Shown one piece after another: positions 15,271-17,994 of a DNA stretch of 64,000 nt; position 1 is the stretch's first letter; every line of letters starts with the position of its first letter. The notes under the pieces are model-generated. The model saw nothing but the letters and a program-made list of their open reading frames with translations. It did not search any database and was not told where the DNA came from. Made by a program: the position numbers and the translations under genes. Where the stretch lies: contig NZ_BDFE01000004.1 in NCBI RefSeq assembly GCF_001748225.1, positions 124,001 through 188,000 of the forward strand, in the 5' to 3' direction. The stretch comes from Desulfoplanes formicivorans (GTDB lineage Bacteria > Desulfobacterota > Desulfovibrionia > Desulfovibrionales > Desulfomicrobiaceae).

Positions 15271-15314
15271 CTTGCCAAGGGAATCGGTTTTGGATAGTTC
15301 CTCATTTCCGTTGC

Positions 15315-15407
15315 GGAGAGGTGGCCGAGTCTGGCTGAAGGCGCACGCCTGGAAAGTGTGTGTACCCTAACCGGGTACCGGAGGTTCGAATCCTCTCCTC
15401 TCCGCCA
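15315..15407 (+). tRNA. tRNA-Ser (anticodon GGA)
   Basis: The acceptor stem GGAGAGG (15315-15321) pairs with CCTCTCC (15397-15403). The discriminator is G, and CCA is encoded. The anticodon stem CACGC/GTGTG holds loop CTGGAAA with anticodon GGA at 15351-15353, reading UCC/UCU. A long variable arm (CCGGGTACCGG region) and the T arm GGAGG-TTCGAAT-CCTCT confirm a class II serine tRNA. A run of seven T follows directly. Confidence 0.97.
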
Positions 15408-15452
15408 TTTTTTTCTTGATGTTCTCCTTCATTGAATCCCCAAGCACAGAGT

Positions 15453-15535
15453 GAAGTCGGGCGGCAGGGGTGCTGCCAACCCCGTCAGGCCCGAGAGGGA
15501 GCAGCGGTAACAGTTACTTCTGGGTGCCCGGCTTC
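15453..15535 (+). ncRNA. ffs: Signal recognition particle RNA (4.5S type)
   Basis: The conserved domain IV core is plain: GTCAGGCCCGAGAGGGAGCAGC, with CAGG and AGCAGC forming the asymmetric internal loop that Ffh binds. The ends pair as GAAGTCGGGC (15453-15462) with GCCCGGCTTC (15526-15535). The RNA is the small bacterial type without an Alu domain and guides co-translational membrane insertion with Ffh and FtsY. The capping tetraloop is GAGA rather than the more usual GGAA. The true ends may lie a few bases outside the helix given here. Confidence 0.95.
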
Positions 15536-15538
15536 TCT

Positions 15539-15568
15539 AACAGGGGCGTCTTTCGAGACGTCCCTGTT
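15539..15568 (+). terminator. Hairpin ending the SRP RNA transcript
   Basis: AACAGGGGCGTCT-TTCG-AGACGTCCCTGTT is a 13 bp stem, with one mismatch, closed by a stable TTCG loop, starting four bases after the SRP RNA core. Only a weak T-containing tail follows. Confidence 0.75.
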
Positions 15569-15590
15569 CGTGTATAGGGGAGAATTCGCC

Positions 15591-15707
15591 TTGACGTCTT
15601 CCGATTCCTCCTTATCTGATATTTTCGTTCGTCTCCTGCTTTCAATCCTGTTGGTTGCTTGCCGTGATCGTTCCGGCCCGGGCAGGGATCTGGGCCGTTA
15701 CAACTGA
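15591..15707 (+). CDS. Possible 38-residue lipoprotein-like peptide (weak)
   Basis: A TTG codon preceded by AGGGGAG eight bases upstream opens a 38-codon frame. It has a hydrophobic stretch and a lipobox-like LLSILLVAC. This could be a tiny lipoprotein, but the frame is short, the start is non-ATG and I know no homologue. The rest of 15571-15845 shows no other feature except the ribosome site of the next gene. Confidence 0.2.
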   Translation: MTSSDSSLSDIFVRLLLSILLVACRDRSGPGRDLGRYN

Positions 15708-15845
15708 CAGCAACGTCTCACGCTTTGCACCAACGCGGTGGGCATTTCCTTGCTGCAACGCGCAGAAATGGTAACACTTCATAGCGCTTGCACATGCCTT
15801 GGGGACCTGCATTAGCCAACCTATCCTGCAACAAGGAGAGTCTTC

Positions 15846-16769
15846 ATGCGTCTCAAGCATATCCTCATCCTGCTTCCGATCATGCTCGTTGTCCTCACCG
15901 TCATGGCCATGGTCCAAACGGCCGAAGCCAAACGGTTTGGAGGAGGCCGGTCCTTTGGAGGACGGTCGTCCTATTCCAAGAGCTATTCCCGACCCATGCC
16001 TTCCAAGAGTTTCGGACAACAGCAAAACACCCGGGCGGGCCGTGTCGGCCAGGCCCCCAACCGAAGTCGCTGGGGCGGCATGTTTGGCGGCCTTCTGGGC
16101 GGCATGCTCATGGGCGGTTTGCTGGGCTCTCTCTTTGGTGGCGGCCATTTCATGGGCCCCAATCTCCTTGACCTGCTTCTCATCGGAGGGGGTATCTTCC
16201 TTTTGATGCGCTTTCTGCGCAAACGGCGGGAGGCATCAGTGGGCGCCACCTCGTCCGGCGGTTCCCCCTATACCATGGACACCTCCTCCTATCATACCCG
16301 TGACGGTTCTGCCTCCGAAACTTCGGCATGGGACAATCTGCAGACAGGAGGGAGTACCCCATCCGGTACATCTTCTTCCTCGGTCGCCATTCCTCCCGAT
16401 TTTGACCAGGAAGATTTCATGAAAGGAGCCAAAGCCGTGTATCAGCGCTTGCAGAACTCCTGGGACAAACGGGATCTTGATGACATCCGCACCTTCACCT
16501 CCCCGGAAGTATACCGGTTTATTGAAGAGCAGTACAAAAACGATCCCACGCCCAGTACCACGGAAATCCTGCTTCTCAACGGTGAGCTTCTCGAAGTGAA
16601 AACCATTGGCAATCAAACCGTGGCCACGGTTCATTTTGATGTGATCATGCGCGAAGATCCGTCCAGCCAGGCCACCGAACAGGTTCGCGAAATCTGGCAT
16701 TTCAGCAAGTACGAAAACAAATCCGGTGACAACTGGGTCCTGGAAGGCATTCAGCAGCTTGAGAACTGA
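15846..16769 (+). CDS. Tim44-domain membrane protein
   Basis: The 307-residue protein starts with a signal peptide (cleavage near QTAEA, residue 28). A Gly/Ser/Arg-rich region follows (~30-75), then a Gly-rich hydrophobic stretch and a transmembrane helix LLDLLLIGGGIFLLMRFLRKRRE (~107-130). A Ser/Thr-rich linker leads to a C-terminal Tim44/MRPL45-like domain (~185-307, from DFDQEDFMKGAKAVYQRLQNSW). Bacterial members are envelope proteins of unproven function, and the domain is thought to bind lipid or protein. AAGGAG precedes the ATG. The next gene starts one base after the stop, so the two are coupled. Confidence 0.85.
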   Translation: MRLKHILILLPIMLVVLTVMAMVQTAEAKRFGGGRSFGGRSSYSKSYSRPMPSKSFGQQQNTRAGRVGQAPNRSRWGGMFGGLLGGMLMGGLLGSLFGGGHFMGPNLLDLLLIGGGIFLLMRFLRKRREASVGATSSGGSPYTMDTSSYHTRDGSASETSAWDNLQTGGSTPSGTSSSSVAIPPDFDQEDFMKGAKAVYQRLQNSWDKRDLDDIRTFTSPEVYRFIEEQYKNDPTPSTTEILLLNGELLEVKTIGNQTVATVHFDVIMREDPSSQATEQVREIWHFSKYENKSGDNWVLEGIQQLEN

Positions 16770-16770
16770 T

Positions 16771-16998
16771 ATGGCCGAGCTCACATGCATTTTCTGTGGC
16801 GGACCCGCCGAAATCCAGGGGACCTGAGCCCGGGGACGCGTCGTGTGCAGGTCCTGCCACATGGATGTTCCCATGGCCATGTATCGAGACGAAATCGAAG
16901 CCTACAAAGAAGCCATGTGCCAGGATGCGGCATCTTCAACGGATTCGAACCAGCCGTCACCCCCGGACAAGCCCCTTGATACGCCGGAAACAAATTGA
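16771..16998 (+). CDS. Small two-knuckle Cys protein with in-frame TGA: candidate selenoprotein
   Basis: One frame runs from the ATG at 16771, one base after the Tim44-domain gene, to TGA at 16996. It is interrupted only by TGA at 16825-16827 (codon 19). Read as Sec, the product is 75 residues: CIFC (6-9), U19, CRSC (26-29), then an acidic helix and a Pro/Ser-rich tail. The coding sense continues unchanged after the TGA. A hairpin follows 15 bases on: GTG, bulged T, GCA, loop GGTCC, TGC, CAC (16843-16860). This is the layout of the E. coli fdhF SECIS upper stem. The alternative is a single-base nonsense mutation, for example from TGG, in an ordinary zinc-ribbon gene. No family is recognised. 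Confidence 0.5.
16843..16860 (+). promoter_or_regulatory. SECIS-like hairpin after in-frame TGA
   Basis: The stem GTG/CAC and GCA/TGC is broken by a single bulged T at 16846 and capped by GGTCC. In E. coli fdhF the bulged U and the loop GU are what SelB contacts. The distance from TGA to the stem is 15 bases, against 11 in fdhF. Part of the symmetry is forced by the codons for CRSC, which lowers its weight. Confidence 0.45.
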
Positions 16999-17003
16999 AA
17001 GAT

Positions 17004-17039
17004 AAAGGCCTGCAACAGCATACGCTGTTGCAGGCCTTT
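17004..17039 (+). terminator. Bidirectional intrinsic terminator
   Basis: AAAGGCCTGCAACAGC-ATAC-GCTGTTGCAGGCCTTT is a perfect 16 bp stem. It ends the Tim44/small-protein operon and also faces the leftward gene ending at 17114. Confidence 0.9.
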
Positions 17040-17113
17040 GTGTCTGGTATGACTTCTGCGCCTTGCCACGAAGAAGCAGAACCTCTCTCCCATCATGCGT
17101 TCTTGCAAAGGGG

Positions 17114-17341
17114 CTATCGCTCTTCCATCATGTTGGCCAAATCGCGAATCCTGCGAAGGGTTTGTCCCCGTTCCTGGGCCAACCGTTGCCATTTTTTCTT
17201 TTCCTTCTTGATAGCCTCCACGGTCTGCAGGAGATCCTGAATGGTATGGGCAGGATAACCGTATTTGGCATATTTGCCCTTGCGGAGCTCTTCATCATTG
17301 CGCTGCCGCAGGGCGCTCAACTGGCTGGCGTTCAGAATCAT
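17114..17341 (-). CDS. Conserved small coiled-coil protein, unknown function
   Basis: This 75-residue highly charged protein is mostly helical. Residues ~38-75 (LQTVEAIKKEKKKWQRL and on) suggest a coiled coil, and YAKYGYPAHTIQDLL precedes it. There are no Cys, membrane or enzyme motifs. The stop is followed leftward by the shared terminator. The ribosome site upstream of the ATG is weak (CGAGG about 13 bases away). I do not recognise the family. Lys/Glu periodicity and a compositional match to its neighbours make it a likely real gene. Confidence 0.6.
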   Translation of the reverse strand: MILNASQLSALRQRNDEELRKGKYAKYGYPAHTIQDLLQTVEAIKKEKKKWQRLAQERGQTLRRIRDLANMMEER

Positions 17342-17379
17342 GAAAACAAACTACCTCGTGCAGATAAATGTCGACAGAT

Positions 17380-17994
17380 CTAGAGGCTTCCACCTAGCAG
17401 AAAAAACAGCGATTGAAAAATACCGATTACAAACCCCAAAACAGCGCCCACCAGCTCGATAAACCGAAACTCCTTTTGCATGATGGAAACAAGAAGCAGT
17501 TCCAGCTGATCCATGGAAAAGCCTTCCACTTTCTCCCGAACCAGCCTGGCCACATCAAACCGGTCTTCCACTTCCTGAGCTCCTCTCTTGAGAAATTGAG
17601 GCACGATCTCATCCAATTGGCTGGCCAGCAGGCCGCGTATCTTTTCCATGGTTTCGTCGTTCAGGAACATGCCGACCATGGGATGGATGCCCACGAGTTT
17701 TTCCCGAACAAAGGTCTCCAGACCTTCCTGAATCATCTCCCTGAAAGTTGCGGCAAATTCCGGGGAGTCGATCACTGCGGCAACATCCTTTTCCGAGATA
17801 AGATTATCCTGAACCATCATGGCCAGATTGGCCGCCAGGGCCTTCTTGCGCTTGGGAAAAATGCCCTGAATGGTCAACGAAAAAATCTTGATGGGCTTTC
17901 GCGGGTGAAAGAGCATCTTCACGGCCAGATAATTGGTCAGCCAACCGATAAACGCACAAATGACAGGTGCGGCAACAAACATCATCCATTTCAT
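17380..17994 (-). CDS. DUF445 family membrane protein
   Basis: Starting at the ATG with AAGGAG ten bases upstream gives 204 residues. A longer reading adds 60 residues without family character and is rejected. The N-terminus MFVAAPVICAFIGWLTNYLAVKMLFHPRKP is the DUF445 (YheB-like) signature, with a membrane helix and the N-Y-x-A-V-K-M-L-F motif. A helical middle follows, then a C-terminal membrane helix (IELVGAVLGFVIGIFQSLFFLL). The function of the family is not established. It lies upstream of the 75-residue gene in the same direction, 38 bases apart. Confidence 0.85.
   Translation of the reverse strand: MKWMMFVAAPVICAFIGWLTNYLAVKMLFHPRKPIKIFSLTIQGIFPKRKKALAANLAMMVQDNLISEKDVAAVIDSPEFAATFREMIQEGLETFVREKLVGIHPMVGMFLNDETMEKIRGLLASQLDEIVPQFLKRGAQEVEDRFDVARLVREKVEGFSMDQLELLLVSIMQKEFRFIELVGAVLGFVIGIFQSLFFLLGGSL

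Follow-up and report, generated by a model that had tools for sequence, protein, structure and literature searches.

A predicted dual-CxxC small selenoprotein of the GxU type downstream of a Tim44-domain gene in Desulfoplanes formicivorans

The 64,000-nt stretch of Desulfoplanes formicivorans contig NZ_BDFE01000004.1 analyzed here (the window) contains a frame for a 75-residue zinc-ribbon-like protein in which, as judged from sequence comparison, an in-frame UGA almost certainly does specify selenocysteine (Sec). The frame very probably encodes a genuine selenoprotein that is translated and belongs to the GxU type ("hypothetical protein DW") within the dual-CXXC small group. It is a new, divergent member of an already predicted family, missing the NCBI cut-off, and not a new kind of selenoprotein. 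An earlier note on this DNA had proposed a selenoprotein with a SECIS element, a proposal supported by a conserved TGA, by selA, selB, selC, and selD in the genome, and by a covarying stem.

Reading frame, Sec codon and Sec-insertion capacity

The Tim44-domain gene stops at a TGA (16767-16769) and the selenoprotein frame opens one base later (Table 1). With its internal TGA taken as Sec, the product carries the motifs C6xxC9, U19, and C26xxC29. This arrangement (a frame one base past the Tim44-domain gene, TGA at codon 19, CxxC on both sides) had been described in the earlier note and was found again at the same coordinates.

Table 1. Features of the selenoprotein locus (positions within the window).
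Feature	Position	Strand	Remarks
Tim44-like domain gene, directly upstream	15846..16769	+	PF04280, 71 bits, cut-off 29.6
Predicted gene for a 75-aa selenoprotein (Sec at codon 19)	16771..16998	+	TGA stop 16996-16998
Zinc knuckle 1, C6xxC9	16786..16797	+	Both Cys invariant
UGA codon predicted to be read as Sec (residue 19)	16825..16827	+	TGA in all 58 distinct Sec-type sequences; two orthologues have Cys
Extended SECIS-like stem-loop, predicted fold joining an outer stem to the apical hairpin	16832..16872	+	Fold; p 0.012 vs. synonymous codons (longest stretch tested)
Candidate SECIS apical hairpin, GTG-T-GCA-GGTCC-TGC-CAC	16843..16860	+	Synonymous-codon null p 0.004; family covariation
Zinc knuckle 2, C26xxC29; codons double as SECIS apical stem	16846..16857	+	Both Cys invariant
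Likely intrinsic terminator: perfect 16-bp inverted repeat, 4-nt loop, TTT	17004..17039	+	5 nt past stop; T run short

A scan of 150 genomes of relatives recovered the protein in about 25, each with TGA at the Sec column, and in the alignment from this first scan C6, C9, G17, U19, C26, and C29 were invariant. The class-wide profile scan yielded 29 high-scoring genomes (≥59 bits), 29 of them with TGA, and a phylum-wide sample added about 49 further TGA members and two Cys orthologues (L107 and L108). In total, about 78 Sec members were tallied for the GxU type versus 2 with Cys. When 58 distinct Sec-type homologues were read residue by residue, the Sec column was TGA in every one and the residue at -2 from Sec was always Gly. 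Directly before Sec the window protein has Thr; most relatives have Arg there. Cys at the Sec column was also seen in a paralogous subfamily.

A pseudogene, in which a nonsense mutation or sequencing error had turned TGG (Trp) or CGA (Arg) into TGA, would need a single base change. The same TGA was nevertheless present in 58 distinct sequences from many families, and neither Trp nor Arg was found at residue 19 among these sequences and the two Cys orthologues, so that a pseudogene is extremely improbable and is counted as already refuted. The earlier note had singled out this column for comparison, expecting Cys or Sec in a selenoprotein and Trp or Arg after a nonsense mutation. Reading of TGA as Trp was separately rejected: Trp occurs in no homologue, and TGA also ends the selenoprotein gene and the Tim44 gene.

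A TGA-specific DNA pattern run against approximately 85,000 species genomes matched 29 stretches, among them Desulfacinum hydrothermale and Thermosulfurimonas dismutans. All of the informatively named matches were deltaproteobacterial or thermodesulfobacterial; one was named just "Proteobacteria." The search of species-genome contigs with a Cys-substituted protein returned no match, in part because TGA escapes any pattern that contains Cys; the TGA-aware pattern worked.

The genome of the window encodes the genes for Sec insertion that the earlier note had proposed looking for, all four being found: selA (617 bits), selB (410 bits), the tRNA-Sec gene selC (82 bits), and selD (333 bits). The selD gene itself has an in-frame TGA, and one TGA also occurs in each of two full-length formate dehydrogenase alpha genes. 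Across the Sec-form genomes selB was present in 27 of 29, which is consistent with Sec insertion but not decisive, because selB was also present in 284 of 348 genomes of the class. The two relatives with the Sec gene in which selB was not found, G017 (L019; 96% complete, 510 contigs) and G062 (L017; 43% complete), are fragmented or incomplete genomes, and a missing contig is probably the reason.

The hairpin downstream of the UGA

The TGA-to-hairpin distance is 15 nt. Of the hairpin reported in the earlier note, the sequence, the position, and this spacing stood; the single bulged T was seen when the hairpin was folded alone, but in longer folds an outer stem formed and it was the 3' arm that carried the bulge. 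Against dinucleotide shuffles the 51-nt region was unremarkable (z -1.16, 26/200). The appropriate null keeps the encoded peptide and shuffles synonymous codons at the codon usage of the window, and under it the hairpin folded at -7.7 kcal/mol versus -2.9 kcal/mol in the shuffles (p 0.004); two longer stretches gave p 0.008 and 0.012, and p was 0.022 in an earlier run under different settings. The earlier note had worried that the CRSC codons force part of the palindrome. With p 0.004-0.012 while the peptide is kept, these codons alone do not explain it.

The same null was applied to the 58 members, giving a mean z of -1.65 and p < 0.05 in half of them; a p-value combined over the members ignores their relatedness and is not to be taken literally. 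Control values were -0.36 for 18 Cys homologues, -0.27 for a downstream stretch, and -0.54 for an upstream stretch. No SECIS-like hairpin was seen in the Cys versions. The Arg right after the third Cys was encoded by AGG in 25 of 28 sequences, compared with 32 of 109 at other downstream Arg positions, the bias expected if this codon has to supply a paired A and G.

An eight-pair stem was evaluated over 53 distinct sequences, where 82.3% of cells were paired versus 30-57% for slid versions of the stem. Changes on both sides of a pair numbered 54 cells versus 24 in shuffles, and the covariation score was reached by none of 500 shuffles. With this covariation, the computational prediction that already existed stands much more firmly across the whole GxU subfamily. 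In L098, L102, L105, L106, L120, and L124 the common stem was missing and another strong hairpin (GGUGAGGUGUCUCACC type, GGUGAG...CUCACC) lay slightly nearer the UGA, which suggests that the SECIS was replaced in these sequences.

A 51-aa frame opens at GTG 16843, so the gene might stop at TGA 16825 and be followed by a separate ORF, or the TGA might be read through with another amino acid. Both flanking knuckles are invariant, however, and hold fixed 9- and 6-residue spacings to the TGA, the Cys forms read straight through, and the stem after the TGA covaries; this reading is accordingly very unlikely. At the level of sequence, a tiny selenoprotein is confirmed, of a kind easily truncated or missed by gene callers.

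Family assignment, paralogue and neighborhood

The best family match of the window protein was NCBIfam NF041197, "dual CXXC motif small (seleno)protein," at 35.4 bits with Sec entered as Cys, below the curated cut-off of 40 bits. The NF041197 motif CxxC-x9-U/C-x6-CxxC is present in the window protein, and each of the 26 sequences in the first alignment matched the model at E 0.01 or better. Among relatives, some scored 40.8-46.7 bits and others 26-36. A 2026 review places two entries under this accession, OS_HP3 (RxU) and hypothetical protein DW (GxU) (PMC13188914); the review traces OS_HP3 to Zhang & Gladyshev 2007, its reference 60 (PMC13188914). Hypothetical protein DW was reported in Desulfosarcina by deep-Sep (2025) (PMC12013277).

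The motif at Sec in the window protein is G-T-U, that is GxU and not the RxU of OS_HP3. Features shared with hypothetical protein DW are one Sec in G-x-U, a relation to NF041197, occurrence in Desulfobacterota, Cys homologues, and a reported SECIS-like element (PMC12013277, PMC13188914). The predicted DW label rests on the GxU motif, the family accession, and taxonomy, and not on a sequence alignment to SMF39960.1. OS_HP3 resembles the window protein in its pair of CxxC motifs, spaced identically around a Sec or Cys, but differs in its RxU motif, its other C-terminus, the predominance of Cys among its members in the taxonomic class of the window, and its own long branch (100/100). The earlier note held that the protein fits no selenoprotein family then known to it, which does not stand: NF041197 and the published OS_HP3 and DW predictions cover it. 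New here are the covariation evidence, the rarity of Cys forms, and the Tim44-gene linkage in one family.

Other resemblances were weaker. The metal-binding double selenoprotein MbdU (NF045648) showed weak similarity (E 0.005, MbdU positions 56-100), but its model spans 468 positions and its family has two Sec, and the window protein scored 15.8 against a cut-off of 600. The zinc-ribbon cysteine pattern is shared with Lar restriction-alleviation and zinc-ribbon domains (PF14354, PF08271), for which the window protein fell below cut-off (15.1 vs. 28.6); PF14354 was matched weakly by 37 of 60 members. Additionally, three loci (L026, L027, and L031; near 1501-1611, - strand) encode arsenite-methyltransferase-like fusions with a CxxC-x9-C-x6-CxxC ribbon and Cys at the Sec position, and these fusions resemble the N-terminal part of MbdU.

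A second dual-CXXC gene occurs in the same genome (L048, G000:C20:102250-102408). It is of the RxU (OS_HP3) type, reads VRTUR with an in-frame TGA, and at 59.2 bits lies above the NF041197 cut-off. A tree that treated Sec and Cys as one character had a branch, supported at 100/100, that separated the RxU-type proteins from the rest; this tree used 46 columns and left many inner forks unresolved.

Judged by strand and position, the Tim44 gene was directly upstream both here and in 13 relatives from the same family, an arrangement shared by most such relatives examined. A genome of another family had a Tim44 gene about 0.8 kb upstream. The inverted repeat with its TTT, 5 nt after the selenoprotein stop, makes it probable that the Tim44 gene and the selenoprotein gene share one transcript. 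The repeat was not listed by a consensus scan, and the span 15300-17400 yielded no sigma-70-like promoter. Beyond the Tim44 linkage the upstream genes differed (helicase, efflux pump, topoisomerase, aminomutase, ketosynthase, and others, named by reading the sequence) and on that reading look unrelated, so no function follows from the neighborhood. Outside the family of the window, L133 (-2494 to -119 from the match) and some 12 comparable loci had a HEAT/TPR-like gene of ~575 aa and a TPR-like gene of ~215 aa, often divergently upstream (domains by reading). The plasmid search gave no match.

Structure and possible role

The structure model was of modest confidence (pLDDT 74-76, pTM 0.46), with short strands beside the knuckles followed by a C-terminal helix. 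Sequence and fold searches of the PDB gave weak matches, mostly zinc ribbons (best Z 3.4). Sec lies 10 residues past C9, with C26 another 7 residues on, and falls near the turn predicted to separate strand 12-16 from strand 23-26. This spacing and the place near the modeled turn suggest that Sec is probably not among the four ribbon ligands. Of 58 members, 46 have a Cys 29-35 residues past Sec, usually at +31, and this residue (Cys50 in the window protein) is a possible selenenylsulfide or resolving partner of Sec19.

In the proposed mechanism, the Tim44-selenoprotein transcript would be translated and SelB with Sec-tRNA would recognize the hairpin just past UGA 16825, its apical stem being made from the codons of the second CxxC. 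Sec would be inserted at residue 19, and the next TGA, at 16996, would serve as the genuine stop. The product would be an 8-kDa zinc ribbon in which C6, C9, C26, and C29 probably hold structural Zn, with Sec19 placed near the beta-hairpin turn between the knuckles and a C-terminal helix after it. The exposed selenolate would most likely be redox-active or soft-metal-binding.

Our best guess is that the protein carries a redox-active selenol on a zinc ribbon whose part is structural; as hypotheses, a redox selenol is ranked first and a soft-metal ligand second. Under the latter the protein would still be a real selenoprotein, with Sec as a fifth or alternative metal ligand (in a metal sensor, chaperone, or soft-metal trap) instead of a redox catalyst. 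The almost invariable joint retention of Sec and the ribbon core would fit a metal ligand, as would the similar Cys-containing ribbon fused to an arsenite-methyltransferase-like protein that resembles part of MbdU. Sec is, however, near the predicted hairpin turn and distant in sequence from both knuckles, and no metal-handling gene was consistently adjacent among the neighborhoods examined, leaving a metal-ligand role possible but the less probable of the two. As a zinc ribbon that lacks a thioredoxin-like redox motif, the predicted protein would be an unusual selenoprotein.

The GxU ribbon keeps Sec almost everywhere. It is conceivable, if rather doubtful, that the selenol would do a job that Cys hardly can, perhaps an unknown Desulfobacterota-specific redox or metal-transfer step, coupled in the family of the window to the Tim44-domain membrane protein. 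The scarcity of Cys forms makes the question "why selenium?" testable in the GxU subfamily.
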